A stretch of 55,868 nt of DNA from assembly GCF_000003605.2 (NCBI RefSeq), contig NW_003143305.1, positions 221,571-277,438 on the forward strand. The letters are read 5' to 3'. Shown here one piece after another: positions 4,263 through 55,868 of this stretch. Origin of the DNA: Saccoglossus kowalevskii (taxonomy: Eukaryota; Hemichordata; Enteropneusta; Harrimaniidae). Under the pieces are notes generated by a model. It worked only from the letters and a program-made list of their open reading frames with translations. It had not been told where the DNA came from and ran no database searches. Positions within the stretch are counted from its first letter, which is position 1, and each line of letters starts with the position of its first letter. The position numbers and the translations under genes were made by a program.

Positions 4263-5775
4263 ACTACATGGAGATGACTTCGATCTACATTGAAAGTTGG
4301 CAGTATAATATGACGTGCAATTGTATGCACGTGTCTTGGGGCCCCAGGTTCACGGATGGATCTAAAGTACTGAGCATGTTTGCCAATGAATGGTTGAAGC
4401 AATTTCTCACTCATCAATGTAGTCTCATGCAGATAACATAATTACAAGAGAAGTTATTCCACAGTGCTTGCCGTCTAGTTTTTTGTTCCACATTCCTGAG
4501 CGTATTTTGAAAAGTGATCTGTAATAACCAACACGCTTTCATAACAAATTATGGAACATTCCAATTATAGGTGGTCGATGCAAACAATTTTGTGTTCTGT
4601 GGTAACTGTTCTAGCAGTGGGTGACTTTTTTGTACCTAAAAAGAGCGTGTTCTAACTAAATCCATGGTGTCATCAAACCCAAATTGACCATTGGCATCAT
4701 GCAGATCACCTCTAAGCTCGCGTGTTAGTCCTATATGCTGAGTTGACCTAAACAGCACACAATTTCTCACTGATAAATTCTCTTACTGGTTCAAAAGAAG
4801 TTGAGTCAGCCTATACATGTGTGATCTCACTGGGATGTACCGAGTTTTCTGTTTTCTTACGTTTATGCAAATGACAATTAAGTAACATCGCATCGCTCTT
4901 CTCTATTATATATTACTATCCATTTAGTTTGTCTTTGCCAAGTTAATTTTGAAAATGGCACATTCCAATGAAAAGTGAAACCTGAGTTTCTTCATAGCAA
5001 AACAGTCGGCAACAGACATGTCGTGTGAAAATCCAGGGACTCCAGAACTACAATCAACAGTACACAGACTGTATGAGTGGGGGAATGTATCAGCTGGTAT
5101 CTAGTGTAAGAAATAGACAAGGGACGAAGGCTCCAGCAAGCTCACATTTTTTAAACTGGAAAACAGACAAAAAGTATTAGAAATTGAAGCGGCTTCAGCA
5201 AAGACCATGCTAACAGGATTCTGTTTCATAATTAATGTCACATGATAGACAATCAAGTAGTTTGAATAATCTGTGCCATGTATTTTTATGGTTTGGTTAT
5301 CAAAATATGGTTTTTAGAATATATAATGAGCCATGTGCTTATATAGTATACAGTAATCTTTCAGGTCAGTTATATAGTTTGTTTTATGCTTTTATTACAA
5401 AAAAGCATGTGTTCATGAGGTTGCATCTGTTGTTCAATGATTTCATCAATACATTGCTTGCATGCTGCAAGTGTTGCTGATATCAAATTTCTTGAATGTG
5501 GTCCAAATGCAAGTAAACGATGATGCATTTAGTGTGGCAAAAGTTACTTTATTAAAAATTATAAAACAATAATGAAACTGACAATGCTTTGTGCAATGTA
5601 TTATTCAATGATAAAACAAACCTTTTCTGTATGCTAGTGGGAATTCATTAAGCCAACTTAATTATATGTACTTATACATGTATATATATACAGTTTTGGC
5701 ACGTCTGGAAAGAAGTGGCAATTAGATAACATAGGAAACGATAGAAAGCTCAAATAAAGCATAATACAACTAATC
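4263..5775. other. no supported gene
   Basis: No confident coding region. A short plus-strand open stretch around 5018-5104, starting ATG TCG TGT, has coding-like composition but no second exon or domain I can support. Confidence 0.4.
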
Positions 5776-7507: not shown

Positions 7508-8365
7508 AATACCTGATTAAATTTTGCGTATTATCATCAAAAAACGATCAGGTATTTACTGAAATTGCCTCATATGCTGTTACAACACAATGAGTAGGTA
7601 AATGGTCTGTAGAAAGTATTTTCTCTTTGAGGCATCTTCCTTACTCACTCTTCTTCAACCGATGTGAGACGGTGACATTGTTTGCACCTGCCGAAACGAG
7701 GAGCTGCATTTTGGTGTATTGTGAACTGTTGACGATGTCTGGTTGCTGAGTGAGCATTGCATGCAAACGATGATGTGCGTTTAACTTGCCTTCTTTCTGA
7801 TCGGTCTTGCTTCATTTTCTTTTCAGTCTTTGCAGCTATCTTAGCTCTATGGGTCTTTGTTTTTTTTCATTGTAAGTCTTTTCTGTTGTCTTTAAAAAAT
7901 TGTCCTGCTCCCATTCTCATGTATAGTTTGACAAGATGCTTGAAGAAAATCTTTATAGCCATGGTGTTGAAAGTGGTTCCTGGATAGTTTATGTATATAC
8001 CAGCAAAGATGATATAGATGTTATCATTGTTGATCAATTGCTCAGTAGCATTGGATATGAGCTGGAATTTTATCAAGTTTTTAACAGTTAACAACTTGAT
8101 TCATTCTTGCTCGAGCATGATGAAAAATGTACAAGCTTCATAACTTACATAGATAAGACCACGTTTAATTTATGAACTGCCTCCCGTCAATGAAATCATG
8201 TGTCTATGGATACATTTGTGTTTGATCACCTATAAGAAGAATCCGCTCCTTATTTGCAAATTCCCGTTTCACCTTTTCATGGATGTTACATTATTTGCAA
8301 TGTGTTGGCGTGATGCTTGTAATTCAAGATTTTTTTATTTCAGAACTAAACTGATTTATTATTAT
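7508..8365. repeat. dispersed repeat R2, copy 1
   Basis: This stretch matches 20094-20905 in the same orientation. Both begin with ACCTGATTAAATT and share the blocks CTCACTCTTCTTCAACCGA, AACGAGGAGCTGCA, GTGTATTGTGAAC and CTCCTTATTTGCAAATTCCC in the same order. Small insertions and deletions separate the copies. The minus strand of both carries a short related frame (7867-8094 here) with residues such as T-V-K-N-L-I-K-F and N-N-D-N-I-Y-I-I-F, shifted out of frame in the other copy. It is a transposon-sized repeat of unknown class. Copy 2 lies directly downstream of a Tigger transposase on the minus strand, so R2 may be the 3' part of a Tigger-type element. Confidence 0.7.
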
Positions 8366-17399: not shown

Positions 17400-18990
17400 C
17401 CATTAAATTCACTCGCCCATTTGTAGGACTTCCTACTGACCCATGATTTTCTTGCTTTTGGACAACTTGTACTCCTCTGGTGTTTACCTGCTGTTGTGAT
17501 CTATTGCTACCAGCTGTGTCCATGCTACCATTTGGTCATGGGCGAACTCTTGGTTATTTGGACAATACTTCAACATAAGACTGTGGTAGACTTCAATCTG
17601 GCCAGTATGGCAAAACCTTGTCAAATGCTTTATGTCTCTTAATATAAGTGTTGAGAATGACCTACTCCATTGCTGCTTAGGCCTTGCTTCCTTTCTTAGG
17701 TCACTTCTTCTTTCTTCTGTTGGTAAAATTGGTGGATGAACGCAACGTGTTACCTTCTCTCCTGGAAATTCATGCATGACAATTACAGATGTGGTGCAAA
17801 AGAAACTTTCATTGTTCATGCAGGTACACCACATCACCATCACAATGCCGTATGGATCACCTCAGATGATTAATGATAGACTTCATTCATGGCATCAACT
17901 CCACACAACCTCTCTTCTTACTGGCTTGTGCCCATCTCTTCTTTATAATATTTAAGAAGTGACATATGTCAAACTGGTGTTCTACTTCAGGATATTCATT
18001 CTTTACCATAGATCGGATTTGTACATGTCTATCAGTTGCTAGGGTGTCCACTGTTATCCCTCTTTCTTTCATATTGTCCAGTGACCACCAACATCCTTCT
18101 TTTTCCATTCGAACAGAACTACCTGTTTCAGTACACTCAATAACACTGAAGTATAGAATGGTTCCAGTTATCTGTTGCATTAAGGTGCAAGTGCCATACT
18201 TGGCTGAATATCCAGGCGAATCACACCTTCCATCTCCAGAAAACCCATAACCACAGGTTTTGCTGGTGCTCCTTGCAATTTTTATTCAAAACATGAAGTA
18301 GATACTGCCGCTGGTTTGTGTAGTTTGTTTGCTTGGAGAAAAACTGTAAGTTAGGAAGGTTGGCAAAATTCTTGATGTGCTTATACGTTGCAGCTGATGC
18401 AAGAAGATTTGTGACAGGCATTTGTTCAATGGATGGCTGGGAATACCACTGTAGAATTGTATGCCCACTAAAGCATAATGACAGTGACAGTTGTGTTCAT
18501 TTTACAGCTTTTCCTAGTTTCTTCTGGACATGTTGACAGACCACATTCACTACACTGTATTACTGACAACAGACTATCAAGTAATAACTCATGGACAATA
18601 TTTTTTTTCATTGATATGCCGAATAGATGCCTTGTTTCATCTTCAATCTTCAATGATTCTGGTTTTTAGTCTCTTTATCTTTGTTATCTTCTTTGGTTTC
18701 AGTCATTTCATATTTGCAAACATTCCCCCAATGTAGGCAATACTGGATGCCAGTGTTTCACATATGTATGGTCATGTTGAATGGAATTGACATCAGAACT
18801 TATACCACACTGTTGACAGGTGTAATTATGTGCCTGCAATACCTTTTGTTGAAGGCAGGTTGATCTACACAGAAAAAGGTGAAAAAATAGATAATAAATA
18901 TACTCACTTATTTGATTTAATAAAACGAAAACAGAATGAAAAAAAGCATGTACATGTGTTAATACAGACTGGGAAAGAACAAACAAATTA
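17400..18990 (-). pseudogene. Kolobok-like DDE transposase, shattered
   Basis: Read on the minus strand from 18990 to 17400, fragments in shifting frames follow the order of one transposase family. A Cys-rich N-terminal piece (18708-18900) and a piece with P-V-T-N-L-L then L-Q-F-F-S-K (18421-18250) come first. They are followed by G-D-G-R-C-D-S-P-G (about 18235), T-D-R-H-V-Q-I-R and H-Q-F-D-I-C-H (18060-17950), and C-H-T-G-Q-I-E-V-Y-H-S-L (about 17600). The D of GDGR, the D of TDRH and the E of EVYH are the likely catalytic triad of an RNase H fold. I assign Kolobok-like from memory of this motif set; another THAP-associated DDE superfamily is possible. At least three frameshifts lie near 18240, 17880 and 17480, so no active enzyme is encoded. 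It lies immediately inside the TTAA-flanked MITE at 19011. Confidence 0.7.
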
Positions 18991-19184: not shown

Positions 19185-20093
19185 ATAAAGAGCAAAAAGT
19201 GGAGCTTTGATCCAAATTATCAGGTGGTTGCAAGATAAACAAGGAAACCCACTCAAGGTTACACATCAAAGCACCAGCACCAGAGCATTTATTTGCACAA
19301 CAATGTGCATTTTACATTCACAAAATAATCCTCGCTGAGACGTTTGTCCGACATATCTGAAGTTTTTGTGTACAGTTTGATGTTACATTAGTTTCATCTG
19401 TCATGTGTCCGGAAAGGAAGGCTTCAGTCTCGGCAGAAATATACATCAATATTTTCATAGTTTGCTGTTCTATCAGGATTTAGTATGTTGTTGATCTGAA
19501 AAATGAAATGGAATTGAAAGAAATCCACATGTTAGTTCAATTGATTAAATTTCAATGCACAGAAATATACATAAATTCTAAAAACAAAGGCTCCCATTGC
19601 AGTCCACAAAAAGACAGTTACACTATTTAGAATAAGAAAAATGTTTACCTTTCTTTTTCGTAAGAGTGCCAGCACTGTTTCTTTTTTTTTTACTTTCCAA
19701 ATCACTTTTCTACATTTTATACACAAAAAAATAATTACATGTAGTAAAATTATACAATTTTATATAAATAGATAGAAATAATGGTCATGGAAAAATAAAT
19801 TTGTCAGACATGCGTGCTACTTGTCTAGTTCAATCAATCATGTACCTGGTGATTTGTCATTCTTGGAGACAAAGATTTATGTTGTCATCTGTTCAAAAAA
19901 ATAAAATATTTTTCACCTGAATTTTAAGTGTGTCTATGGTCAAAATAAGTTGCATTTTAATAAATCAAGACGTGCAACTTTTAGGGAGATGTACTGAAAG
20001 ATACTTCATACAGTATCCTGATTTGTAGAATTTATATTTTGTAAACCTCTTCTAAGTGTAATATTTGATATTGTATACATAAATATTATCTTT
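19185..20093. other. no supported gene
   Basis: AT-rich DNA without recognisable coding or repeat content. Confidence 0.45.
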
Positions 20094-20905
20094 ACCTGAT
20101 TAAATTCCGCATATCCTCATCACAAAACGATCAGCTACATCTACTGGAATTGCCTCATATGCTTAACAGCACCAGAACAGTATTTTCTCTTTGAGACATC
20201 TTCTGAACTCACTCTTCTTCAACCGACATGAGCCGGCAACATTGTATGCATCTGACAAAACGAGGAGCTGCACTTTGTGGTGTATTGTGAACAATGCATG
20301 CAAACGACGATGATGATCGGTCTTGCTTCAAATCACTTTGCTTCATTTTCTTTTCAGTTTTTGCAGCTATCTTAGCTCTATGGGTCTAATTTTTCTTTCA
20401 TTGTAAGTCTTTTCTGTTGTCTTGCTCCCATTCACATGTATTGTTGGACAAGACGCTTGAACAGAATCTTTATAGCCATGGTGTTGAAAGTGGTTCCTGG
20501 ATAGTTTATGTATATACCAGCAAAAGATGATATAAATGTTATCATTGTTGATCAATTGCTCAGTAGCACTGGATATGAGCTGGAATTTTATCAAGTTTTT
20601 AACAGTGAACAACTTGATTCATTCTTGCTCTAACTTGATGAAAAATGTATAAGCTCCATCAGTTACATGGATAAGACCACGTTTTGTGAACTGCCCAGTG
20701 TTTCTGGATACATTATGTTTCTTCTTGTATTTGATGCTGAAACAATTAGGTGATTAATCAGCTCCTTATTTGCAAATTCCCGTTTTACCTTTACATGGAC
20801 TTTTCTATCTTTGGATGTTACATTATTTTTAATGTATTAGCGTGAGGCTTCTAATTCAAGCTTTTGTGTATTTTTGAATTTCGAAACTAAACCGATGTAT
20901 CATTT
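20094..20905. repeat. dispersed repeat R2, copy 2
   Basis: Same orientation and block order as 7508-8365. This copy lacks a short piece near 20420 present in copy 1 and has an extra insertion near 20730 and 20805. It abuts the C-terminal end of the minus-strand Tigger transposase at 20950, so it occupies the 3' side of that element. Confidence 0.7.
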
Positions 20906-23974: not shown

Positions 23975-25000
23975 TTAAACTATTATTTCCAGGTCTCCAT
24001 TCTTCATGTCATCTTGTAACTTGTAAGAGTACACTGCCTCCACATTGCCGCCTTCATATACTATATTGTACCATTTCGGGAATTCAGACGCCTGAAATAT
24101 ATAATAAAGTATTATAATTATTGAGATGCCACAGACAACTGCCATGGAATAAAATATTACCACATAAAAGGTATTATAATGATTCGATGAGATTACCAAT
24201 TGGCTAATGAATAAAAACAAATTTGGTGACTGCATTCCAGGTAAAATTGAGTGGTACAATATAAGCCAATGAAAATAATCTAAATTCTAAATACATATTA
24301 TTATCAGTAATTAAGATATATGTCTGTTCTGATCATACCTGTGAGAGAACTGTGCCTCTGTAATCTACAAATTTCCGACCTATGTCGCACTTTTTGCCAA
24401 CAAGGAAAGCGGTTTCTGGGTCTTGTGAATCCGACATTGCTGGCCAATTCATTGCAGGACAAGTTTACTCTCTTCCTTCCTTGTTCACAAAAAAACTGAA
24501 GACCGATTTGTCTCCTGCATCTCGTTTCAATACATTATTATTTTCAGAGCTTGATCTTTTCCTTTATTTGAGCGCATTGATTCTAACATAGAATCAACTT
24601 ACCCCATAGTTTTCTAAAGAACATATTTTCTTTTTTGGAATGCAGCACGGATAGACTTCATTCCTGCAGCAGCAACCAATTTTTGACTTGTGTCATCATC
24701 CTGAGATGATAACCACAGATCAGTCTTGTTCATAAGAAACATTGTAGAGGCCTCTGAGGCTAATACCATTATATTGGGCTAGAAACGCATAAGTTGATCA
24801 AGATACCCAAACAGACGCTCCACATATTTATCGTGCTTAAGCACTAAGCGTCTGTTCACGAAATTCATGGTTATTACCTCATAAAGGCCACCTTTCATTA
24901 GTAACTTCGTAAGAACTGGTAACAAGGACCTCGGGATCTTTTGAGTGTGACCATCATGATACTCTTGACTATGCATGATAAAAGCATCCAAGACAGTAAA
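23975..25000 (-). pseudogene. unnamed multi-domain family, copy A (C-terminal half)
   Basis: Minus strand. The first piece (24991-24603) carries K-H-D-K-Y-V-E-R-L-F-G-Y-L-D-Q-L-M-R-F, a TAG stop at 24781-24779, then P-N-I-M-V-L-A-S-E-A-S and M-N-K-T-D-L-W-L. This block is clearly related to 35571-35739 of copy B. The next piece (about 24590-24339) has D-K-S-V-F-S-F-F and E-T-A-F-L-V-G-K-K, with a TAA at 24467-24465. It ends G-T-V-L-S-Q at a GT donor. A 247-bp intron (24338-24092) follows. The last exon (24091-23975) reads A-S-E-F-P-K-W-Y-N-I-V-Y and Y-K-L-Q-D-D and ends at TAA. The final domain, G-x-V-(13)-W-Y-N-x-x-Y, looks like a small SH3/Tudor-type barrel and matches copy C. Two stops, and a missing LWQS block seen in C, mark it as a pseudogene. 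The family is multicopy in invertebrate proteomes as I remember it, but I know no name or function. Confidence 0.6.
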
Positions 25001-25312
25001 GTGAAGGCAGAGTCTTACCTTTCTTTAGCTTTCTTTCAGTGAGTATAAACACACGTCAAGTGATTATCTGAGTGAATCTAACGAAGATATGGTAGCCAAG
25101 GCATACGCTCGTTCTTCAGGTTCAGATCAGACGATCCCGGATGTTGGAGAGTGGGAACTTCGGTACCTGTCGGGATCGTTCAGCGATATTTCAATCACAT
25201 CGGCCATTTATACTACACTCTCCTCAGTCATCTTTTTCGGTGGTGGTTACATCATCCTGTACTTTTTCTTTTCCAGTATCAGGCCCATGTGATTTAGGCA
25301 GGTATCGCGTCA
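24994..25312 (-). repeat. promoter-like repeat R1, copy 1
   Basis: About 320 bp matching 55540-55863 in the same orientation. Shared blocks include GGGAACTTCGGTACCTGTCG, ACATxGGCCATTTATACTAC and CATCTTTTTCGGTGxTGGTT, and (T/C)CAGTATCAxGCCCATGTGA. On the minus strand both copies hold a conserved GTATAAAT and, about 190 bases further on, a conserved splice-donor word AAG|GTAAGACTCTGCCTT. Similarity stops just after the donor in both copies. This looks like a mobile promoter plus first exon. Here it ends just upstream of family copy A, on the same strand. Confidence 0.65.
25206..25213 (-). promoter_or_regulatory. conserved TATA box in R1 copy 1
   Basis: GTATAAAT on the minus strand, identical in R1 copy 2. 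It lies about 190 bases before the conserved donor at 25018, so a first exon of roughly 160 bases is predicted. Confidence 0.4.
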
Positions 25313-34270: not shown

Positions 34271-35760
34271 AGTCTTAAGAAACATTTAAATAAGAAAGTG
34301 GAGAGCTGCAGTGTATAGACTTCATCATAGAAACTTTCTGGCAGAAAATACCCATGAAAGAGGCAGTTTATTGTCAATGTTGGAGAATGAGAAACTAAAA
34401 GTATTTGAGGAGGCCTACACGCCAGCCCTCATGGAGTGTATTATGAATCTTGGCAGTAAAAACGTTGCCAGTGGTAAGATGAGCTAGGTAATTGCTAAAA
34501 TTCTGGCACTGTGTGGGAAAGGCAAATAGGTTGCCATCATAGAGAACCATTGATAACATCATGGATTCAAGAGTACCAGTACGTCACAAGCTGTAACCCC
34601 AGCTTTGAACACTTGTTATTCCAGGATGAAACCAGGAAGTTTGGACGGACATTCAACATCAATGTCGTCAGCGATGAACAGCAGACTGCATTTGTGCTTG
34701 AACTTGGGGAGATAGAAAATATAACATCAAGAACACTATTCAGCACTCTCCAAATGATCCTGATGGACATCAGTGAAATTTCAAGTACTTCTGTTGGCAA
34801 GACCATTGCAAGTCACATGAAAAACATGTTGAGTGACCGAGCTAGTAACAACATAGCTTTCAACGACCTGAATGAAGAAGAACAGGGAATCTACTCAAAA
34901 ATAAATAATTTCTTCTGTGGATTGCACCTCCTAGTCAACTATGCTGATTGTTCATCAGAAATCTTTCGCAAGTTCGAAACATCATATACCATCAACGGAA
35001 GTGAATGATCCATTCAAGATGCTGGTGCTCTTAATCTGGTGAGGATGGCTGCCAATTGCTTTGCAAGGGATGGGGGGTGAAAAGTCTGGAGCTTATGGAG
35101 AATTTACCACTTTTCTTTGTTCCATTGGTCATTGACATTCTTTGGTAACCTTTCGTGGCAACAGATATAACATCATCTTCCTTCTGCAGAAAGCTCTATT
35201 AACCAGCTTAAAACATCTTTTGTATGTCGCAGGAGTTAAGATACTGAATCTACTGGACAAACTTGTAACTGTACTTTATGGCGAATCATTGAGGGTACAA
35301 ACCACATTCTGGAACTGAATACCAACCATCGGCTCCTACATTTTTCACGTGTGCAGCAGAAGATGCCACAGAATTTATCAAAGGCAAAGATCACTCATTT
35401 ACTGAAGATTGGCTCCATAAAAATGTTTGAAGCTCTCGTCGAGGAATATAACATGGATGAGATTGCCTTGCCCTTGCCCAATCCATTTTTCTGGGGCTAC
35501 CCACTTTGTTACAACGTGGTGTATTTCATCAGCCATCGAACAGCCTTAGAACCAAATCAGTTCTACCAACTTACAAGATGTCAGAATTTATCTTTGGTAT
35601 TGTTGATTTCCTGTTCAGGTATGGACCCAATGAGACATACATTATGTATTCAGTAAACACAACAAGGGACTGGCTTAGGTCTCTACCCCAACAGGAAAGA
35701 GACAATCTACTCTTATCGTCCAAGAAAGAGGGTAGATAAACAAGAAAAAAATGTATAGAA
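34271..35760 (+). pseudogene. unnamed multi-domain family, part B (transposase-like core)
   Basis: Plus strand. A basic coiled-coil-like piece (34280-34480; W-R-A-A-V-Y-R-L-H-H-R, L-E-N-E-K-L-K-V-F-E-E-A-Y-T) ends at TAG. A 165-codon open frame (34511-35008) then carries D-E-T-R-K-F-G at residues 39-45, a beta-strand pattern, M-L-S-D-R-A at 106-111 and N-N-F-F-C-G-L-H at 132-139. Broken pieces follow, then M-S-E-F-I-F-G-I-V-D-F-L-F-R-Y and Y-S-V-N-T-T-R-D-W-L (35580-35690). The last block is homologous to copy A. Asp39 and Asp109, 70 residues apart and followed by a Cys-His motif, suggest an RNase H/DDE fold; this is my inference. The end, K-K-E-G-R then a basic helix, fits directly onto the start of part C at 41592. 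Several stops and frame changes disable it. Confidence 0.6.
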
Positions 35761-36469
35761 CGTTGTATAGAGCTCAATCCTCTTTTTCCCCCATGTCTTA
35801 CTATGGTGCATCATTTGTCAGTTCCTCTGATTGACATCATATCCGAAGTCTAACTTACTATGGCAACCATAAATCTATTCTCTTTTATCCTAAGTTAAAC
35901 TTTGTATGGAAAGCACATCTGACCCTCCCCAGGGGGTAAGTCAATGTCTTATGTCAAACTGCTAGGCAGTGCAAAAAGCAAACATACTTAGCATAAATAT
36001 ACAGTGTACTGCATTGTTAGCTTCTAGCACAGCCCTTTGGTGCTCCAAGCAGAAACTTTTCCAGCATTGTGACACTTGGTGAACTCAACTTGAATCATGG
36101 GCAAACCAAGTAAGTACAATCTGAATAGTTGTAACTCTCAATGAATTGAACTTGAGTGGGCTTGGCTACAAATGAATTAAACTCAAGTGAGCTTGCATTG
36201 AACAGAATTAGAGTTAGGTGGACTCTGCTACAAATGAATTCAACTAACTGACAACTATCGGTCGTGGTCTCAGTTATCAAGAATCTCACATCAGGGGCAA
36301 CAGTCAAAGATTTTTCACCACAAATTAAAAAATCACAAAATGCAATCTTACAGGTGCAAGTGGAATCGATGAACATGGATTTTTTCTTGCTGTCTATACT
36401 TAATTTTGCTTTATATTTTAAATTTGTCTAAAACCACTTTCTAGCACTCCTTAATACTTTTTTTCTTAG
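35761..36469. other. intron or spacer, imperfect short repeats
   Basis: Near 36080-36240 words such as GAATTGAACTTGAGTGGGCTTGGCTACAAATGAATT recur two or three times in diverged form. They resemble the unit language of the 41.2-kb minisatellite. No gene. Confidence 0.4.
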
Positions 36470-39034
36470 GTAAACACACTATTGCCTGTGTTAAAGGCAA
36501 GGAATTCTATGAAACTATCAGATTCTTTCAGGGAAGTGATTGCAGAGATTAATAAAATAATGGAACAGAAAAGCTTTAGTTTTTTCTTGGAGGCGATTAC
36601 AAGGTATTTGCACAGTACCTCCTACAAACACACCAGAATTCAACTTGTCCTGTAGCATAATAGAGAGCAGCCTTATAATAATTTTCTGAAGATTATTGTG
36701 GTGGTGCCCTGCTAAAAGTGGTAGTGCACATATACAGTGTAATGGCAATAAGTATCATGTATCAATAAAGTTTTTATTATTTTTCAGTTTATTCTTATGG
36801 TCCTTGGACTAAAATGAGCCACAAGCCAGTATGCATGTGCATGGTGTCATTGCCCAAAGAAAGAAGGGTACAGTTATCTTATAATTCAACATAATTTGAT
36901 CAATATGTTTTAAAATGTATGAGTATATATAATGTCAATAGAAATTGCCTAACTATGGAACAGACTCGTACATTGTACATGCCAGTCAGTGTACTGTATT
37001 TGATCTATCACTAGCACATTTAAATTAGAGATTTTTCTATGCTCAAAACAAGCAATATTTTAATAATTCAGTATACAGCATATGGATTTGTTATGTTTAT
37101 ATGTGCTTCTATGGGAAATGTACTTCTAATGGAGTAAATATGGTATCTTGAAAGCCGTGCATGTAAGATTTGTAGTAGTTACTGTTTTTTCAATTAATAG
37201 GCATGATATTAGCAAAGACAATGATCACTGGACTATTCAGCCTCACTGCATGTCAATAGAAGGATTGGTTAAAGGACAGTTCTCAGTTCATCTTGATCCT
37301 ATTTTTTCAATCCCATTGGATTGTGTTGTGATAGATGAACCGCACTTGTTACTGCGGATAATGGATGTCCTGCTTAGAGCCGTTGTTCTGGAACGTCATG
37401 AGTTGGACTTAAAGGTACTGAATATTTACTGTAAATAAATTAGTCTAAAAATACACTTCAAATTTCCACACTTTGAAGCAGTTCTCACTTATATGCTCAC
37501 ATATATCCACCACATTATATCCTTTAGGAGAAGAAAAACGCAGTGAAGTCATTGGTCGAGTGTATCAACAACACAGTATATGTTACTTTCAACGTTTGGG
37601 TCAAAAAAGGAACCTCTGAATTGGACTGGACTAGTCTGACAGGTGGCAATACGAAGTTGTTGTTAAAGAAATTACCTAGTCATTTATCAAGTATTCTGAA
37701 CAGTGAAACATTAGAAATAGTCAAGACAATTTGGGAGGTTAGTTTTGTTCATATTCATCTTATATTTGTCTTTGTAATTAACTGCCAGAGATACATGCAT
37801 GGGTCAATTAATTCAACCCTGCACAGTGATCCATTTAGCTACTTTGCCTGATTAACATGATTCTTGGGGCAATGTGCAGTTTTTGCTTCAAATTTCAAAG
37901 TGTATACCTGCTACATTCAAATCTGGCTCCCCGTACTCAAAAAGTGGAACCTCTGCCTACAGGTATAGTTTTCGTTGATGTGGGGGGGGGATATATGTTT
38001 ATGCTTCCCAAGATAATCGTTGTGGAATATTCAATATGGCAAAATCATAACCTAGAGGTTGTATATTCATTTTATATCTACAGGTTGCTACAGACTAACA
38101 CTGATAGTTCTTTTAATCTATTATAACAGACATTTTGTTTCTATTTTATTAGAATTTCAATGATTTATACCAATTGATGAAGAACAATCCAGTTCCACAT
38201 GTGTTCCAGGAGAAAGCTAAAGAATGGGTAAACCTATTTCTAACGCTATCTGACAGGCGTACAGTCTACCAAAGAGAACGAATCACCCCATACATGCATA
38301 TTAAGTACCCAATATGATGAAATTTCATGGTGATATCACTCTTTACTGGACAAGGTTAGTAACTGATTCCATGCTCTTAATAGAGCAGTGATAGTAAATA
38401 AGTACTCCAGTGATATGTACGGGGGGGGGGATAACTGTATATCAATTATTGTAAATTTTGTTATTCAACTTTTGATCAATCACTATAAAATAACAACTGT
38501 TTTGTTTCATTATGTAGTATTACTCATTTTAACCAGTCTATTACAATAAATATACATATCCTTTGATATTCAGGTGTGGAAAAGAACAATGATGATGGTA
38601 GGCGAGTGTAGTTCAGACGCAGCAATAAAGCTGATACTCCTGCTGATATTCTGCAGTCTGAGAAGACACAGAATATGCTAAAGGATTTCCAAAGGCATAG
38701 GCGAGAATACGTCAAACGAAAGGCCAAGTACTGGGAGGATGGCATCTATGACGAGAGGAATGCAGGCCATGCATTAGCAAAACCAATGCTGCTGCAATTA
38801 TAGTATCAAACCAGCCTACATTCCAAACAGAACAGTGTGACAGAACAACACAGAATATTGAACAAACTGTTTCACAGACAAGTGAGCCATCACATATACC
38901 AGTAACAGACAAGCAGACAATTATGAAGATGCGGCTTCCTGAACTTAAAGATCAGTGCTGCAGTCATAATCTTGCTGTATCAGGGACTAAAAAAGAAGTT
39001 ACAGGAAAGACTTGTTAAGGCTTTAAAACTGTAA
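36470..39034 (+). pseudogene. six-exon decayed gene of an unnamed transposase-like family with C-terminal SAP domain
   Basis: Six exons have matching GT-AG borders: 36470-36603, 36788-36867, 37201-37414, 37528-37737, 38153-38354 and 38574-39034. Reading order: S-F-R-E-V-I-A-E-I-N-K, F-L-G-G-D-Y-K, then L-M-V-L-G-L-K and Q-Y-A-C-A-W-C-H-C-P (a CxxC insert). Next come C-V-V-I-D-E-P-H-L-L-L-R-I-M-D-V-L-L-R, L-D-W-T-S-L-T-G-G, R-I-T-P-Y-M-H, F-T-G-Q-G/V-E-K-N-N-D, and a basic helix. The end is a SAP DNA-binding motif (M-R-L-P-E-L-K-D-Q-C, then L-Q-E-R-L-V-K-A-L after a frame change). Phases agree across introns 2, 3 and 5. Lesions: a frame change in a T-run near 36590, TGA at 36815, frame changes near 38310 and 38345, TAG in exon 6, and two further frame changes. 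The G-G-D, CxxC and conserved D/H motifs suggest an RNase H-type transposase, but I know no superfamily name. Confidence 0.65.
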
Positions 39035-39060
39035 AAATGTAAATGCAATATCAATATCAA

Positions 39061-39270
39061 TTTTGTCATTTAATCTTGATGGCCAGTGCATTAACCAGAA
39101 TAGCCATACGGGAGGGGGGGGGGGCTTGTATTTATTATTGGCATGTTTACAATGAGGGATATTTATTGTTATGTTTCAGTCCTGAGTTGTATATGATATA
39201 AATTTATTTTTAAATGCACTGATTGATCTTAATGGCTGTAAGGGCGGGGGGGGGCTTTATATTTATAATT
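39061..39270. repeat. poly-G containing tandem pair
   Basis: Two related units (about 39072-39140 and 39225-39275) share TTGATxTTAATGGC-like sequence, a G-run of nine or more, and CTT(G/T)TATTTAT. Further G-runs occur at 37982 and 38420. These can form G-quadruplex-like structures and are frequent indel sites. Confidence 0.45.
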
Positions 39271-39503
39271 GTATAAGGACGGATAATACAATCTCATCTT
39301 TGTTAAATATAAAAGAATACGGTAGTTCTTTTTTTGGAGTATGTGGTGGCCCTGAAAACGGCCGTTTGGTTTGTGTGAATGATTATTCACTTAAGCACAC
39401 CATTCTTTGGTTACACGTACAGATACAGTTTCAATCTTGTAAATCTCCCTGGTAACATCATCTGTGATTAAAACACTTGGTTTACTGGTCTTCAATGAAA
39501 ACT

Positions 39504-39913
39504 TCATCTCCATGTTAGCCACCTTGCACTTGGTGCCCAAATTGGTGGTATACTCTTACCATTCACGAGGAAAATACACCGGGCTGAATATGTCCTTATT
39601 GGTGGGGTCAAAACGCCTCGGGTGTTTCCTATATTGTTGGATACCAATATCCCCACCAAATAAGGCATCATATACATCCCGGTGCATTGGGACAGTGTCA
39701 GAATATACCATCTTAAGTGGATTGCCAAGTGCTTGACGGACCATCCTGAATTGCTGACTTCTCTGGAGGTATCATTTGATAGAATCGCTGAATGGGACCA
39801 ATGGGAACATCATTTTCACACAGCCATTTCCACTTGTTGGATGGCTCGTTGGGATCAGCCAACAGAAACAACTCAACATTGCCTACTTTCCTTGTTGCTG
39901 TAATATGGTACAT
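39504..39913 (-). pseudogene. unrecognised broken coding-like segment
   Basis: All three minus-strand frames are partly open. The upstream part (39913-39713) and the middle part (39744-39556) have coding-like composition and appear to continue one another after a frame change near 39730. Openness then passes to a third stretch that extends towards 39410. I cannot place it in a family. A structural protein of a mobile or integrated viral element is one possibility, on composition only. The segment lies between the SAP-tailed gene and part C, on the opposite strand to both. Confidence 0.3.
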
Positions 39914-40142
39914 GTTGTCAGGACTTAGTAAACTGGTATAATACTGGGCAATTCCTTGGTTATATGCACAATGTTATGCAGCGGAACAAAGAAAACAATT
40001 AGAAAAAACAGCTTGGGTTACGAAAACAAAGAACCACTCATAATAACAAAGGACTGTGCTGGACCCTTGAAAACAATGGATTAAGTTCTTGGCTCTTGCA
40101 TCTAATTAAAGGCAGAATTCCCTGAGTCAACAGGAAATCATT

Positions 40143-40205
40143 AGAATACACCCCAAGCTGACAGGAAATGACTTTTGACCAGCTTCTATTGTTCATTTCT
40201 TGCAT
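40143..40205 (+). repeat. short copy of the Tigger exon boundary seen at 29.9 kb
   Basis: ACAGGAAATGAC, TTGACCAGCTTCTATTGTTC and ATTTCTTGCATG match 29915-29960 in the same order with a few changes. The similarity covers only about 50 bases, including the D-S-I-V-H-F region of the Tigger CENP-B domain. It is a fragment of a related element. Confidence 0.4.
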
Positions 40206-40370
40206 GAAATATGACTTTGAGAGAGGTGGCTTCTTTGAAAATTACTGACCAAGAACATGATCTTTCTGCAGAGATATCAAGCAACAGATCGGGTAGAGTG
40301 AAAAAGGTTTTTCTGCCCACATGTACACGAGTCTAAAAAGGTAGGATCTGACAAATATTTACCTATACCC

Positions 40371-40850
40371 ATGGACACAAATAGTTACAGTTTTGTCCCT
40401 GATAGTTTCCATTCTCCAGTTACTGATACTGCTAGTACTAGTACTAGACGTAGAAAACTTAAAAAACACCGCAGAAAGTCAGAAAAAAAAACATATGATC
40501 GCAATACTAGTGACAGTGATGAGGAAAACAGCTGCAAGCCTAGAAAAAAGCCAAGAAGCCATAGAAAAAACATCACTTGAGTAGCAGCACTGACAGTCTT
40601 AGTTCTAATTAAGGCACAGGTGTTGGCAGGTCTATGATAACAATGTACATGAGATAATTGGAGAAATTGATGGAGAGCATGAAAATGTACATGGGAATAC
40701 TGAACATATGGATAGTGGGTCGGAACATGTACTGTTTAAGGTGGAGATGACAATAAGCGTGAGGATGAACAGGTTGAAGATAAAGGTGAGGGTGGTGGTG
40801 ACGGCAGTGTGCTCGAGGAAGGAGAAATCGATGATGTTGATAAAACTTGG
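40371..40850 (+). CDS. low-complexity basic/acidic coding-like segment
   Basis: A 69-codon frame from 40371 starts M-D-T-N-S-Y-S-F-V. It passes into a Lys/Arg/Ser-rich block (R-R-R-K-L-K-K-H-R-R-K, then S-D-S-D-E-E-N). After one or two frame changes (about 40585 and 40738) an acidic block follows (E-I-D-G-E-H-E-N, E-D-E-Q-V-E-D-K-G-E-G-G-G-D-G and L-E-E-G-E-I-D-D-V-D). Alternating basic and acidic tracts resemble disordered N-terminal regions of nuclear or transposon proteins. It could be the N-terminal exon of part C or an unrelated fragment. No donor with matching phase was found. Confidence 0.3.
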
Positions 40851-41182
40851 ATCCTGTTTCAAGTTATTATATAGTATGGATTGGGGGTATTACCGATATA
40901 ACTTATATATCATGCATACATATATTGTACATGCATATGTTATGAATTCAAAATGTATGTATTTATGATACATTGCTTTGTTATATGTATCTTACAAATT
41001 AGTAATATAATACTACAAAATTATTAGACTTGTAGATTTTGTTGTCCACAGAAGAGTACTTGTTCTCATGAAGGTAATCAGACTACATAGTCTGATGACA
41101 GTATGTGGACCCAAGTCAAAAATAGTTATATTCAACAGTCACCCAAGTTGAAATTAATTGTAATTTCCACCGACAGATTTGA

Positions 41183-41380
41183 ATTTACTTGTAGTTAAAA
41201 ACAGCCCTATTAGAACTTACTTGTAGTTACTTTAGCCCCATTAGAACTTGCTTGTAGTTAATTTAGCTCCATTGGAACTTACTTGTAGTTACTTTAGCCC
41301 CATTAGAATTTACTCGTAGTTACTTTAGCCCCATTAGAATTTACTTGTAGTTACTTTAGCCCCATTAGAATTTACTTGTA
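41183..41380. repeat. 31-bp minisatellite, about 6 units
   Basis: The unit is ACTTACTTGTAGTTACTTTA plus GCCCCATTAGA, with units starting at 41215, 41246, 41277, 41308 and 41339, each exactly 31 bases. A diverged unit is at 41183 and a partial one at 41370. Substitutions are few in the middle units, so the array is fairly young. Confidence 0.9.
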
Positions 41381-41591
41381 CATGTTAAGCTCAAGTCCAA
41401 TAAATTCGTAGCAATGGTTACCCAACTTAAATTAATTTGCAGTTACTTGCACTCAAATGAAATTAGGTAAGTTGTAACGTAATACTCAAGTACAACTTAG
41501 TATGCAACTTTGCACCCTTGGTTAAATGACATTTCAAATGAGTCACCATAGAAAGTTTGACTTGGAATAACATGTGTGTAGTAGCCCCCAG

Positions 41592-42168
41592 GGAGAAAGA
41601 GGATTAAGAAAAGGAGAATTGAAGCATTGCACAAAAAACAATTGCTGGGGGAAAAACATAGAGGTCTTGAAAGAAAAAACAGACTTAGCGACGAAATGGT
41701 GTTCTTCAGCTTGTGGCAGTCGGTTGAGGAAGTTGCCGCTAAGTTGGGAGGAATGAACACAATTAAAAAAAAAATTTAACGACACAATTAAAATTCAGAA
41801 AGACGATGCTACAGCAATCTTCCACCAATCCTCAACTGTTTACCTTGGCCAAGAAACTGCCTTCTGGCAAATATGTTCCAAAGACAATGCCTGATCTGAA
41901 GTGTGTAGAAACTTTAGTAAATGAAGCAAAAGCTTGCGAGGCCACATTAGAAAATGTGGATGGAAGAGTTCCACTCTTGGTAGGTAAAGATGTGGATCAT
42001 AAATGTGATGATGGCATAACTTATACAGGAAGAGTGATTAATGTAGTGCCAGGATTTCCAACATGGTACAACATCAAATATGACCACTTTGATGCCATAT
42101 ATACATATCAGTTGCAAGATGATTACCAAGAGAGAATTCTGAATATTAATATGAAACCAACTTTTTGA
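41592..42168 (+). pseudogene. unnamed multi-domain family, part C (C-terminal tail)
   Basis: After an acceptor-like CCCCCAG (41585-41591) the plus strand reads a highly basic helix (R-K-R-I-K-K-R-R-I-E-A-L-H-K-K). S-D-E-M-V-F-F-S-L-W-Q-S-V-E-E-V then runs up to an A-run and a TAA near 41779. A 120-codon frame (41806-42168) follows in another frame, with L-A-K-K-L-P-S-G-K-Y, V-P-L-L-V-G-K-D-V-D-H-K, Y-T-G-R-V-I-N-V-V-P-G-F-P-T-W-Y-N-I-K-Y-D and Y-T-Y-Q-L-Q-D-D-Y. This final barrel-like domain is the same as in copy A, but here it is not split by an intron. The basic helix continues the end of part B (35760), suggesting one gene with 5.8 kb inserted or spliced out between. A single frame change in the A-run is the only clear lesion in this part. 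Confidence 0.6.
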
Positions 42169-43149
42169 GTTAGATAGTTATCTATCTGCATATACATATG
42201 GAAATTGCACATAATTTTAAATTAAAAACACTTCTGTTATAACCCACAAGTAAAAAACAAAAAATATCACATTGCATATTTATGCAGCATTTACCACAGT
42301 AAAACGAGTTGAGCACATATGTCTATACATTTGTTAGTGTATAAAGGGTGTGTTTGTTTAGATTTTAAGTGTAATAACCATTGTACTTTTTAAATTATAT
42401 TTCATCAAACTTATTTTAATGTCAGATTCCTGTCATTCATTTATTTCAGAAACTACAAGTTGTAAATAACATTAAAATTGTACATATTAAGAAGATTTAT
42501 CATTCTGGCTGTCCTGACTTACATAAAGGTAAATACCATGAATTTGTTCTGCTAATGGTTGGTTTTAACTTTTGCCCCACCATGCAAATTCCGACAATGT
42601 GGTGATACATTGGTTATTTCTCAAATGTCAGTATACTTTCTATGCATGGCACACCTAAAATCGGTTAGTATATTATTGTATTATTTCTGCAGTTGTCATT
42701 TTTTCCAATCGCCCTCACACAGCAGGTGGACATTCATTACCAAGGTCAAGCTGTGGATATTATCATTATTGAACTATTGCTTAATTTCCAACACAAATAA
42801 TTGGTATAACTCTTTCGAATATGAATGGTCTGCCTTGCCTAGACTATCCATGTATATTAAAGTATTTATTGGGGATTCACACAATATATAAACCCAAAAC
42901 AGAAATAAATGTGAAAACATGTGACCTCACCCAAATGTACATAAATAAAATAAAATAGTGAGTGACAAATTTAGATCATCCCCGGGAAAATCATCGATCC
43001 CGGCTCCAGTTTCTGAACAACAGTTGTTCAAAAATAACTTCCCTAAAATATCTACGACAATCGCGGGCGGTGGGTTTATTGTCTTTACCTCAGAGGATTT
43101 CTTTTAGTTCCTCGTGAAAAGGACATGTTATTTTGGCACGTTCACTTCT
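42169..43149. other. no supported gene
   Basis: A 110-codon frame at 42559-42891 is Phe/Ser/Cys-rich with no recognisable motif. The word AAATAAAATAGTGAGTGACAA at about 42951-42972 also occurs at 33406-33426, so the two sites may share a short repeat. Confidence 0.4.
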
Positions 43150-45700: not shown

Positions 45701-47361
45701 CTACAAATGCCCCTTTAACTTATTTACAAAAAGGAATCCATAAAATTGTACAGTGCTTACAATGAAGGATAAAGTACTCAATGTTGTGCAAAAATACTCG
45801 AGTAAACTGTTTCTCACGGGTATTACAGTAGGATTACCAGCACCTTGATATGGTACATTTGGCACATCAAACTTGTCAATACCTTTCAATAGTTGTGGAT
45901 TAAAAGAAACATTGCTATCCTCACACATGTTGTGAAGTATACAGCATGTAGTAACAGTTATTGGAACATTATCTAGACGTAAATCATTTCTTTTCATCAA
46001 GCATCTCCATCGCCCCTTTAAACGCCCAAATGCATTTTCAACGACCACTCTTGCTCTACTAAGCCTATTGTTGAATCTTTCCTGATCTTGAGTTAGCTGC
46101 CATTGTCCGAAAATGGTTTCATCACAATGGGCATTAATGGATAAGCAGGATCAGCCAATATTACCGGTCGTATTTGGTGATCTTGATGTTTTTGCTCTGG
46201 AAACAAAGTACCATCTGTCAACTTGCTATGAATATGAGAGTTAGCAAATACTCTGGCATCGTGTACGCTACCAGCCCTACCTACATTTATATCAACAAAT
46301 TTACAAGAGCCTGTAAAATAACAGAATAAAATGACTTTCTGTTGAAACAGTCGCTGAGATTATTCTCTGGGGCAATAATTGGTACGTGGCATCCATCTAT
46401 TATAGCAACAGCATATGGGAAGCCCCACCTTTGCTAAAAACTGTCCATTGTTGCCTGAAAAATAATCGTACAAATCACATCACTGTAAAATTTAGGAAAA
46501 ATCCAGACATGAGAATAATAAATTAATAATATATGTGTGACCAATCCATTCAACAAACGAAAATATAACTACATATACTACCATTCAAGATGATTGATTC
46601 TCACTAGTCCTTATATAATATAAATAATAATTGAAATATAGAAATTGTATGCTAATTATAAACATTTTTGATTCAATAAACATTTAAATATCAACTTTAA
46701 CTACAGATTGTCCAATCAGCAGAAATAATAATTTTAGTGACGCCACATGAAAAATTACTGACAATAATTTTAACCCAGATTTTATTTTAACCACCTTCAG
46801 TAAAAAAACTTAATAAAATTCCACACGATGAAGAAGATGGAAATGTAGTTGAGGTTGCACCAAAGACATGCACAATTGTTGACCTACCAATTCCAAATAA
46901 ATGAGCAATAGTTCTGTAGTGTTGCTGCAATTCTCACGTCCACTGAGATGGCATATCGCATTCTAGTGTCTGATTTCTTTAAATATGGACGCAGTCGATC
47001 ACATATGTATCTCTGTTGATTCTGAAATGAAGTAAATTAAATTTATCAGTTTTCTAAAATATCCACATATTACGACATGAAACATTATAATAAAAAGCAG
47101 AAAGTTGAACATAAGCATCACCAAACATCGAATTAAAAATGCAATTTCAGCTTACCTAATGTTTTCAATAAAATCTTTGTTATCCCAGGTTGGTAAAACT
47201 ATCCTGTCCCACCAATGAGTACTCCTTGTACGAAGGACAGTTGTTGTTCGTAAGCCAGCTTCTTGTATGAAAAGTACAAATGAATATCTCAGTCGACGAC
47301 GTGCATTCATATAACGCTGTAATCGAATTCTTTGTTCAGTGATATATTGACGTGAGCGCAC
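45701..47361 (-). pseudogene. PIF/Harbinger transposase (HARBI1-type)
   Basis: Minus strand, several exons. The first open piece (47361-47156) has R-R-R-L-R-Y-S-F and T-H-W-W-D-R-I-V-L-P-T-W and ends at a GTAAGC donor. The second (47021-46800) has L-R-P-Y-L-K-K-S-D-T-R-M-R-Y-A-I-S-V and H-L-F-G-I-G-R-S-T-I-V, the helix-turn-helix, with one frame change. The third (46460-45701) has F-P-Y-A-V-A-I-I-D-G-C-H-V-P-I (first catalytic D), G-R-A-G-S-V-H-D-A-R-V-F, I-L-A-D-P-A-Y-P-L (second D) and V-V-V-E-N-A-F-G-R-L-K-G-R-W-R (E). The last ORF (46048-45701) is open. The DDE triad is present but split by frame changes near 46300 and 46110, so the copy is dead though recent enough to align along its whole length. 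Confidence 0.85.
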
Positions 47362-47628: not shown

Positions 47629-49225
47629 TAAAAGTATATAGGTAGAGTAGGTTAGTTAAGAGCTGCACCACGGGTAGTTGGGATGCCAAGCGGTGGGCAG
47701 TGTTAATACATAAGGGCAGAGAAGGATACAGATACTTCTGAAAAGCTTCACTTTTCCAATCCCCCATAAATTTAATCAACTCTGTTGGTATCCCACGAGG
47801 CACCTCCATGACTGGAACTATGAGTCGAGTAGTGGGATGTCATAGGAACGAGCGATTTTAACAGAGTGAGAAGCCTAGAGTTAAAGTGAGCTGAAAGTAT
47901 GGGTTAGCGAGTAGAGGGCTTAGTGAGGCCAAGCAGGTTGAGAGGAGTGACGAAACCGGGCAGAACGGGTGTCTCTCTGTAAGCGTGGCAGTGGCAAAAT
48001 TAGTTTCCTCTCCTTGGTCTGGATAGTTTTAGACCATCAAATAATCAGCCCCATGTAAACTCCGAAAGTCTTGATGAGTGACCTGTCAAAACTTTGAGCT
48101 GTCTTCGGCAGTACATTGGATTTTCTCAGTAATGCAACAAATAGTAACAAACAAATAGCCCAGAATACTTTATCGTCAGTCAGAGTTAAGTTTAGTTGGG
48201 AATGGATACCCAGCAAGATCGGTGGTGTATTGGTACTGCCTAACAGAGGACAATGCCAGACGTCTGGCAAGAAAGGCAGCATACCGACAGACGACAGAGG
48301 ACTACAGGATCAACTGGGACAAGAGTATAGCCATGCTCTAAGCAAAATGAAAGGTAGACCCTGCGGTGGGTTGCATAATTCTCGCATTGCTGCCATGACG
48401 ATAGGGTGGCGAAAGGTATCACTATTATTATTAGCCAGTGCTACCTGGCTATCTGTATAAATAACGACAGAATGGTTTCGCTAATATGGTGCCCAACGTT
48501 TGGCTGCTAACAGGATTTATAGAACTTCTTTATGGTTAATGTGCAGCGAGGCTGTGGCCGGCCAGTCAGTGTGCCAGGCAACATATTGCCAGTCCCCGCG
48601 ATGTGTACATCAGTAATAGGACGTGGATCAATGAATTTGTGGCAACCATTAAATACTTTTAAATATGATAGCCATCATTTGATATTCACTTGGCAGTCGT
48701 TGAAGAGTCGGATTTTATGGGATGCTTGCTTGAGCTGGTTCATGTCATCCAGTATGCACCAGAGGAAAGTTCTACCTCCTTTGACAACATGACAAGCCCA
48801 GGCCAGTTTACCGGCAATAGAAATTGCAGCTGGTGCCCAGCAAAAATTATGAAACTCATTGGCGACAATTGTAGCGTAAGGTTAACCGTGTCAATTTCAA
48901 TACCCAGGAAAGTGAGCTTTTGTGAGGATCCCACTACCTTATGCCAGGCTATACGAATACCAAGCCGTCTTAGAAGTTGAAGCAGCGTGTTGAGGGCAGT
49001 GTCACACTCGTCATATGTTTTTGAAATGATCAAAAAGTCATCCAAGTAGGCCACCATAGCCTCATAACCCGGCTTAGCCATCATGTGACGGACGCTTTGG
49101 GTTAGTCTGTGAAAAATGCCTGGGGAGCGTCGAAGTTGAAGCTGGCACGCGTTGAAAGTGTGATGTCTCGTGATGGGTAGGACGTTGACAACTTTGTGGT
49201 GCTTGGTTATGTACGCCAAGCTGAT
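47579..49225 (-). mobile_element. DIRS-like tyrosine-recombinase retrotransposon, degenerate
   Basis: Minus strand. The 159-codon frame 49219-48740 is a reverse transcriptase: L-Q-L-R-R-S-P-G-I-F-H-R-L, then Y-L-D-D-F-L-I-I-S (catalytic Y-x-D-D), I-A-W-H-K and L-T-F-L-G-I-E-I-D. A degenerate RNase H region follows (48740-48430). Then come pieces of a tyrosine recombinase: Y-L-S-F-C-L-E-H-G (48422-48240), L-L-L-F-V-A-L-L-R-K-S-N (48282-48037) and G-I-P-T-E-L-I-K-F-M-G-D-W-K-S with the expected Tyr (47809-47579). RT, RNase H and YR in this order are diagnostic of DIRS-like elements. Frame changes near 48280 and 47830 disable the recombinase. The 5' end is cut at about 49225. Confidence 0.8.
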
Positions 49226-49246
49226 GGAGAAAATGCCAGCGGTGTC

Positions 49247-50309: not shown

Positions 50310-53300
50310 TTTTATAAGAATCTTTGATACGCCATTAAACTCAGTTTTTGTGTTTTGCAGCTTGATATATAGATATAGCGTTTAGCCACAAGTATTACAA
50401 AATTTAGCAATACAGAAAATTGTTCTTCTCCCAGAATAATTTGTTTTGCATTGGGAATATCAAGAAGCCCTAAATGTCTTCCCCACAACATATACATACC
50501 CAGAACTCCATAACAAATTCACAATTATAAAATGAAAAGTGTATTAAAGTTTCTTTTTCTCTTCGCCGCAAAAAGTAAATTTCTCAGTTTCTACTCTTGG
50601 TGGCACCATTTTGGACAGAATAACATTAGTGGGTAATACATTGTGCAATATCTTAAATTGGACGGTTCTTACTCTATTATCAATTGTCACTTTATGAGTA
50701 AGCTGGTACAATGGATCCCAACATTCAATATGTTCATTGAATAAAAGAGTGTAATACATTTCAGACCTGGGAGGAATAAAATAAAAATCTACAAAGCATT
50801 TGGTTACATTTCTGGTGTTAGTCTTTAATTCCCCTTAATACTGCTCCAACTCTGAAAAAAGTTTCCCTATTTTAAAATTAGCAATATTGTTTGCAGTAAT
50901 AGAATTTCTCCATACTCGTGGTACGGCATTAGTAAGACTAACACATAATAGACTGTGCAACTCCCATTGCCCTCACATCCTCCCTACCAAAATATTGCTA
51001 TTTTTCTTGAATAGCTGCCCCACATACATAATTCCGGCTCTAATAAATTTTTTACATATATGTTGATTGTTCCAAATTACTTGTTTTAACAATAATTTCT
51101 CATTATCGTTGCCCAACTGATTAGCTTCTGACCACACATGTAGCATGTTTTTAAAGAAGCCAGATAGTTTAACTGACAATATTTGAACCTTAAAATTACT
51201 TTACAGTAGAACTTCCACCTACTTTTCCTACTTCACTTTCCAACACTGTCCTCCAGGGATATTTAATATTTGTATCGCAAAACCTCTGGATCCAATTAAT
51301 ACGCTGTGCCTTATAAATTGCTCCTATGTCAGGCATGGTTAACCCTACTTTATCCACAGCACCTATCATTGTTTGTCGAGCAGTTTTGTCCGGCCCACTC
51401 CAAAGGAATTTGAAAATTAATTTATTTACATCCCTGAGACCATGTGTCGGAAAATCTATCATGTTCATAACATATTGAATTCTCGAAATAGCCATACTCT
51501 TAATAATTTAAATCTTGCCATATATAGTTAAATCTCTAGATTTCCAGAAATTTAGACTAATTCTGAGTTTTTCCAACTGTTCTGCCAGATTCAGATCAAG
51601 TGCCTTATTTTTATTATAGGACACATAAATGCCTACAATTTTAATTCGACTTTCTGGCCACTTGACTCTCAGTGGTTTTTCTTTACAATCTTTATTTTTC
51701 CCTTACCACATTGCTTCATTTTCGTTAATATTAACCTTGAGGCCTGATAGACTCTCAAAGCTTTCTAACAACTAGAAAACATTCTCCCCAGATTTTACAT
51801 CTTCAACATAACATGTGAGGTCATCTGCAAATGACACATTTTTAATTTCTTAATTTTCTATCTCTATAACTCTGATGCCTTTATCGGATCTAAGATTTAT
51901 TAGGAAAATTTCCAGGGCAAGAACAAACAGTAATGGGGAGATGCAATCTCCCTGTTTGACTCCCCTGGCAAGCTTGAAGTACCCGGTGACTGCCTCTATT
52001 CATAACGCAACTTTGGTAGTTGCTTTATAATGCTTTTATCCAGCTTATGAAATTCTGACCAAAATTTAACTGTTTAATACCTTGAATAAGCAAGACCAAT
52101 CTAATGAATCGAAGGCTTTTTCTAGATCTATTTGTTATTAAAATGCCAGATATATTAATTTCGTCTGTATAGTTCATCACCCCTTCAATTAATCTTATTG
52201 CGTCTCCAATAAACCTAAAAATAAAATAAAATAAAAATTGTATAGTCCACATTCAAGAGCGTTACTGGTCCCCAATTACGAATGAATCTTTTGTCTTTAC
52301 CTTTTGTCTCGATTAGGGAGATAACCCCTTGCCTCTGTGATGGTGAGAATTCTCCCTTCTCAAATGTAGCGTTAAACGAATCTATCATATAAGGCTTTAA
52401 GATTGGCCAGAATTGTTTATAAAATTCGCACGTTATCTCATCATTACCAGGGGTTTCATTAACCTGCATAGATTTTATCACCCTTTCAGCTTCCTCCTCA
52501 GTTATTGGCCCATCACACATTTTTGATTTGTTTTCAACCATCTTGGGAATTTCAGGATTATTAAAAAACATATTTTCATTCCTGATAATATTCTCTTTAT
52601 TCTTTTCTAGTTTACTGGAGTATAAGATCATGTAGAACTGTTTTATCTCTTTGTTTATTTCATCTTGCTCACTTATCTCTACACCATCTTCCCTGGTATT
52701 TTATTTAACAGCCTTTTATTGTTATTGTATTTCTCCATTTGAAAAAAATATTTTGTGTTTTTCTCTCCTAATTCTACCCTGTTTCACCTAGATCTAATCA
52801 TTAATCCTTCAATTTTCTGTTCAAATTCTTCCTCCAATTTTTCTTTAACTCTGTCTCTCTGTGTAATTAGTTCCTCAGTTGGCTTATTGCTCATTTTTGC
52901 TATTTCTGTTAATTCCTTTTTTAATTGTAACACTTTTTGTTTTCGTACAGCAGCTTGAATTTTACCAAATCTCATTGATTCTTATTTAATTTAAAATTTT
53001 ATCCAATCCCACTTCACCCCAGGATCCTGAATATCTACTCCTTCCTGTGCCCAGTTTGTCCTCAATCAAAGATACTTATTATCTCTCAAGAAACTATTGT
53101 TTAGTTTCCAGTAAGATGGCCCACGGCCACTTCCCTCCCATGACATTTCAAGAGTAACTGCTTAATTATGAAATTGTCAAGTCTACTTTGCACTACTTCA
53201 GGGTGGAAGCGTCTCCAAGTATAATTTTTTTGTCTGCATTTCTCACCCTCCATATATCAATTAAGCCAAATGACTTCATTATTTCTTTTATTAGTTTTTT

Positions 53301-55530: not shown

Positions 55531-55539
55531 TTGCTAGTA

Positions 55540-55868
55540 AAGTAAAGGCAGAGTCTTACCTTTATTAAGCTGTCTCTTGGTGAGATGATACACACGTTGA
55601 GAATGGATATCTAAACGAAACTAGCGAAGGAACGGTAGCTGAAGCTTGCGTTATTTCTCTAGGTTCCGATCAGACTGCCGAAGTTCCCGGATATTGGAGA
55701 ATGGGAACTTCGGTACCTGTCGGGATCCTTCGGCGATACGTAAATCACATAGGCCATTTATACTACACTCTCCTCCGTCATCTTTTTCGGTGATGGTTCC
55801 ATTATCCTATAATCTTCTTTTCCAGTATCAAGCCCATGTGATTTAGGCCAGTATCGCCTAGGTGTCAA
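55540..55868 (-). repeat. promoter-like repeat R1, copy 2
   Basis: Second copy of the 24994-25312 repeat, running off the window end. It keeps the minus-strand GTATAAAT at 55756-55763 and the donor word AAG|GTAAGACTCTGCCTTTACT (GT at 55558-55559). Here it stands upstream of the tandem array and the LINE ORF1, unrelated to family copy A. Confidence 0.7.
55756..55763 (-). promoter_or_regulatory. conserved TATA box in R1 copy 2
   Basis: GTATAAAT on the minus strand, flanked by the same bases as in copy 1. Confidence 0.4.

Follow-up and report, generated by a model that had tools for sequence, protein, structure and literature searches.

Three gene fragments in Saccoglossus kowalevskii are probable relics of an unnamed cut-and-paste transposon family with a hAT-like enzyme and a spindlin-type tail

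Transposons of the hAT superfamily encode a hAT C-terminal dimerisation domain and a BED finger, and their ends follow the rule YARNG. P elements have a THAP finger together with P-type RNase H and insertion domains, and Kolobok elements duplicate a TTAA target. Chromodomains dock some integrases on marked chromatin. Here, we analyze a stretch of 55,868 nucleotides from the hemichordate Saccoglossus kowalevskii (the window; contig C3427, positions 221571-277438), which contains three gene fragments, termed A, B, and C. We consider these fragments probable relics of an unnamed family of cut-and-paste transposons whose hAT-like enzyme ends in a spindlin tail. According to the description of Dada, target duplications of hAT elements are about 8 bp long, and Dada itself inserts in genes for small RNAs and carries zinc fingers of the CCCC and CCHC types (PMC3706591). 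For the spindlin SPIN1, the second repeat reads H3K4me3 and the third has no cage, according to a study in which the mouse protein tags young copies of LINE1 to be silenced (PMC11499256).

We traced the family through the genome assembly to which the window belongs (572 Mb in 4830 contigs); all genome-wide match counts are lower bounds. A search with the core of part B yielded at least eight matches, part B included, one of which led to locus L010 on contig C1912. L010 contains one uninterrupted open frame of 723 amino acids (positions 3276-5444), in which the motifs HSDEAS, MSDR, CGLH, RGNRFN, LPGG, HNKYVERLF, and NKTDQWL are followed by a long basic helix and the LFYGLWQ motif, and then by the first half of a domain with a WYN motif. 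The second half of this domain forms a separate last exon with its own stop codon, downstream of a GT..AG intron. The order of parts proposed in the initial annotation of the window (core, NKT..WL block, basic helix, LWQ, and tail) is thus the order of the L010 frame and its last exon. As a query, the 723-residue frame gave at least 70 matches, which by a hand count fall into about 26 places spread over 21 contigs; only the match to L010 itself spans the full frame free of stops. In the window, the pieces also match in family order, those of copy B to L010 or to a second locus, L009, and those of copy A to L010, which confirms that copy A shares the WL block and the WYN domain. Stops or frameshifts interrupt every copy in the window, and A, B, and C are probably defunct remnants of one transposon family.

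Parts B and C almost certainly belong to one gene, as had been proposed, with both present in a single frame in L010 and adjacent to each other in locus L014 (contig C347, minus strand). L014 aligns to window positions 34352-35677 and then to 41776-42840 (74 to 78% identity), and because only 36 bases lie between the two alignments, B and C were once one unit. The LWQ stretch is absent from L014, where it was evidently deleted. The window interval at 35780-41585, also absent from L014, is an insertion or an intron. Within it lies a second, fragmented gene-like unit (37202-39018, plus strand), one piece with a SAP domain (PF02037, E = 1.9e-5) and the others without a match to any Pfam family; this unit may represent another multicopy invertebrate family. 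A 31-bp tandem repeat of 6.5 copies is located just upstream of part C (41177-41380).

The initial annotation read the 6 kb as an intron with CCCCCAG as its acceptor, and by eye, a GT..AG join of B to C at this site would indeed keep the reading frame and extend the basic helix. However, L010 and L049 have no intron at the join site, L009 has none through the basic helix, and the SAP-domain unit sits within the interval. Part B was described as ending in a basic helix after KKEGR; while its open frame does stop there, the DNA, compared by eye, resembles L014 on to about position 35779, beyond the supposed donor. Given the intronless loci, the deletion in L014, and the gene-like unit inside the interval, an insertion is as likely here as an intron, and a genuine intron bounded by GT..CCCCCAG appears doubtful.

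Five residues of the catalytic core are conserved (D110, D183, C229, H232, and E502 in L010 numbering), giving the order D, D, CxxH, and E, the last preceded by a large insertion. The best four PDB matches of a structure model of the family enzyme are all Hermes, a hAT transposase. Judged from the conserved residues and this model, the enzyme is likely to be hAT-like, apparently a distant cousin of the hAT transposases. By sequence, the core had no match in the PDB (profile A2 gave one match at E = 1.4, taken as chance); its weak Pfam matches (e.g., CUT, E = 0.07) were below the cut-off and were likewise attributed to chance. No Pfam hAT dimerisation or BED domain was detected in the L010 frames at E values up to 1, at which a divergent domain could be missed. 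Because the family makes 7-bp duplications (see below) and the hAT-specific Pfam domains gave no match, we do not file it as hAT.

It is conceivable that the core is instead a CxxH DDE enzyme of another branch, of the P, Kolobok, MuDR, or Dada type. A CxxH or DxxH motif is common to hAT, Kolobok, P, MuDR, and Dada, and Dada makes 6-7 bp duplications, but terminal repeats, which our family has, are absent from Dada-U6 and Dada-U1 (PMC3706591). The four best structural matches, all to Hermes, also argue against another branch, and we regard this placement as unlikely. The MULE/Mutator domains PF10551, PF20700, and PF00872 gave no match at E values up to 1 in the frames of L010, L009, and L011. 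P-type domains and THAP had no Pfam match, and neither P nor Kolobok was among the structural matches listed, where absence excludes nothing. The duplications found, ATTGTGA and ATCATTG, are 7 bp long and differ from TTAA, which speaks against Kolobok. With this duplication and a core without a Pfam match, the family lies outside the named families tested.

That the family is a mobile element, i.e., a cut-and-paste DNA transposon, is very likely. Its autonomous form is about 6 kb long, has 14-bp terminal inverted repeats starting with TAG, and makes 7-bp target duplications. The left end, TAGCGATAAC, starts at the same base, plus or minus one, in all four copies found. The right end, GTTATACCTA, is common to L010, C2920, and C2736, and related right ends exist in L011, L055, L051, and L050. 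The L010 element measures 6067 bp, its terminal inverted repeats are identical at 12 of 14 bases, and it is flanked on both sides by ATTGTGA (exact over 7 bp). The L047 element (4470 bp) has a shortened right end and is flanked on both sides by ATCATTG (also exact over 7 bp). Thus, terminal repeats, for which the initial annotation had recommended a search around full-length copies, do exist in L010. In inverted-repeat scans of L010 and L009, the 14-bp repeat was not among the 25 longest pairs listed.

Two copies, C2920 and C3528 (89 to 93% alike), both lack L010 positions 1630-5397. On the left, the DNA flanking the one is not similar to that flanking the other, nor to the left flanks of L010 and L047; some stretches used as right flanks in this comparison are not true flanks, the right end having been placed later. 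One internal deletion at several sites is typical of elements moved in trans. No target duplication was found in six of the eight copies examined (one of the six, L055, is partly N) or in the flanks of C2920, which fits old, rearranged copies but lends no support to mobility. In the window, copy A has neither element end, and copy C has a candidate right end at 42841 (a weak terminal match) without a target duplication found. A right end of the L010 element at 6920 was dropped, since C2920 and C2736 align on to ..GTTATACCTA; the terminal-repeat test with the rejected end gave nothing significant. The copies on C1166 (L053) were rejected as young insertions, as a segment of about 6.57 kb is duplicated there in tandem (98% alike).

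Alternatively, the copies may belong to a multigene family of the host, or to a domesticated transposase that left many pseudogenes, with L010 as the working host gene. This would agree with the stop-free coverage of all 723 residues by L010 alone and with an excess of third-codon-position changes in seven of eight pairs (ratios of 1.65, 1.52, 2.24, 1.76, 1.32, 1.25, and 1.82). However, the ratio is 1.00 (no excess) for window B versus L014, L010 itself is bounded by terminal repeats and by a 7-bp duplication that is exact, and two copies with one internal deletion occupy places with unrelated left flanks. We therefore find a host gene origin improbable. That part C is a separate relic, downstream of the B gene by chance, might be supposed from the 6 kb and the other gene-like unit between them, but is highly improbable in view of L014, in which both parts have the same order and strand at the spacing and identity given above, and of L010, which holds both in one frame.

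The identity of the WYN tail as a Spin/Ssty (spindlin-type) domain is close to certain. Window positions 41806-42165 match PF02513 with 38.9 bits (cut-off, 25; E = 7.7e-10), and part C matches spindlin-1 and spindlin-3 chains in the PDB (E = 3.6e-19 to 1.7e-18), with each of the three spindlin repeats aligning to the single window domain in two alignments. The first half-domain of L010 alone scores 16.8 bits against PF02513, below the cut-off. A small-set search for domain halves (E up to 0.05) covered 21 sequences, i.e., 19 loci plus window copies A and C. At least one half is present in 16 of these, including the deletion derivatives L063 and L064, and both halves are present in 12; none was found in L009, L013, L046, L049, and L053 at this E value. 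The halves are contiguous in window C and L014, while they are 198 to 939 bases apart in eight of the ten other copies with both; splice signals were inspected in L010 and copy A. Because the domain is split in most copies, a Spin/Ssty profile search of the whole genome found part C as its only match. At the four positions of the SPIN1 aromatic cage for methyl-lysine, compared by eye, L010 and L012 have F, Y, Y, and Y, and window C lacks the F. We give about even chances to the prediction that the tail acts as a histone-mark reader. L053 (1249-4919, contig C1166) is a divergent member; its open frames are long, and its C-terminal tail is of another kind, for which no Pfam or PDB match was found. 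Family members seem able to exchange their tails.

Window pieces were matched to loci with an E limit of 1e-4. On the plus strand, copy B begins with a fragment from the end of the N-terminal helical part (34290-34484; L009 residues 263-314, E = 9.4e-8), followed by the catalytic core with DET, the MSDR-like LSDR, and FFCGLH motifs (34499-35005; L010 residues 45-252, E = 2.7e-19), which has no Pfam family over the cut-off. A frameshifted fragment of the helical insertion (35136-35315; L009b residues 113-180, E = 1.4e-6) and the region of the conserved E with the N-x-T..WL block (35461-35736; L009b residues 260-356, E = 6.6e-18) come next. The WL block had been placed in a piece beginning at 35571; the block is present, but its frame starts at 35572, and translation from 35571 meets four stops. 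The rest of the basic helix lies beyond the stop codon (35737-35779), by its resemblance to L014 as judged by eye, the BLAST match ending at 35677. Copy C, also on the plus strand, starts with the basic helix and LWQS block (41588-41776), which were recognised by eye against L010 and did not reach the E limit in the piece matching. Its C-terminal part (41806-42165) includes the Spin/Ssty domain without an intron at about 41980-42114, and the 3' noncoding part (42166-42841) extends to the candidate right end ..GGTCTGCCTTGCCTA, where homology with L014 ends.

Copy A, on the minus strand, retains the region before the NKT..WL block (24782-25024; L010 residues 436-514, E = 3.4e-21) and the block itself (24617-24778; L010 residues 516-565, E = 1.8e-23). 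The first half of its Spin/Ssty domain (24339-24464; L010 residues 686-723, E = 2e-13, with the match at 24464-24336) is separated by a GT..AG intron (24092-24338), seen in the sequence at the same place as in L010, from the second half with its stop (23975-24091; 91% identity with the L010 exon in a stretch of 35 residues). A direct repeat (24995-25308 and 55536-55857, 80% identical) adjoins the truncated 5' side of copy A.

The window also contains a dispersed repeat of about 0.85 kb (7510-8363 and 20093-20904, 76% identical) and a Mutator-like transposase fragment (17887-18285, minus strand; PF20700, E = 6e-5, under its cut-off). Three minus-strand segments (45701-46359, 48740-49246, and 51196-52700) give the impression, from their translations, of being Harbinger-type transposase- and reverse transcriptase-like. 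Searches for related loci in viral contigs and phage records gave no match, nor did Rfam at gathering scores. Among three proteins submitted to PADLOC, one had two weak matches (E = 0.014 and 0.06), which we attribute to chance similarity of coiled coils.

We propose that the family encodes a single transposase with an N-terminal helical or coiled-coil part, a hAT-like DDE core whose insertion before E is all-helical, a long basic helix with the LWQ block, and a C-terminal Spin/Ssty domain. D110, D183, and E502, the last as the presumed catalytic E, would carry out the cutting and joining of the ends, as their counterparts do in Hermes. By binding a methylated histone tail, the Spin/Ssty domain may dock the transposase on marked chromatin and perhaps direct insertion there. 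More speculatively, a distinct unnamed hAT-related animal lineage might have captured a spindlin-type histone reader and use the chromatin mark to choose its insertion sites; the domain shared with host spindlins would reflect capture one way or the other, and spindlins could even descend from the element. Judged by the titles listed, no open-access paper found describes a fusion of spindlin with a transposase or transposon, and Repbase may hold an entry for the family. If the transposase does carry a histone-mark reader, one could test directly how cut-and-paste elements choose their landing sites, a role that chromodomain integrases play for some retroelements, and the family ties spindlins to transposons from the side opposite to the silencing of LINE1 by SPIN1. 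If the architecture recurs in marine invertebrates, as the initial annotation suggested, many orphan gene models would gain a class.

Among known systems, Dada shares with our family a CxxH/DxxH DDE enzyme, 6-7 bp duplications, and introns in most genes, whereas the 12-of-14 terminal repeats of L010 have no equivalent in Dada-U6 and Dada-U1 (PMC3706591). Hermes and other hAT enzymes share the order D, D, CxxH, long helical insertion, and E and account for the best four PDB matches of the model. They differ in their 8-bp duplication; the family makes one of 7 bp, has a Spin/Ssty tail, and shows no hAT dimerisation or BED Pfam match in L010. Of its ends, TAGCG on the left fits YARNG, whereas TAGGT on the right does not. 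Spindlins (SPIN1 to SPIN4) resemble the tail, with sequence matches of up to 3.6e-19, but have three repeats, while the family has one, fused to a transposase-like core. Finally, chromodomain-bearing integrases likewise place a chromatin-reading domain at the C terminus of a DDE enzyme, although they belong to retroelements and combine another reader domain with another enzyme.
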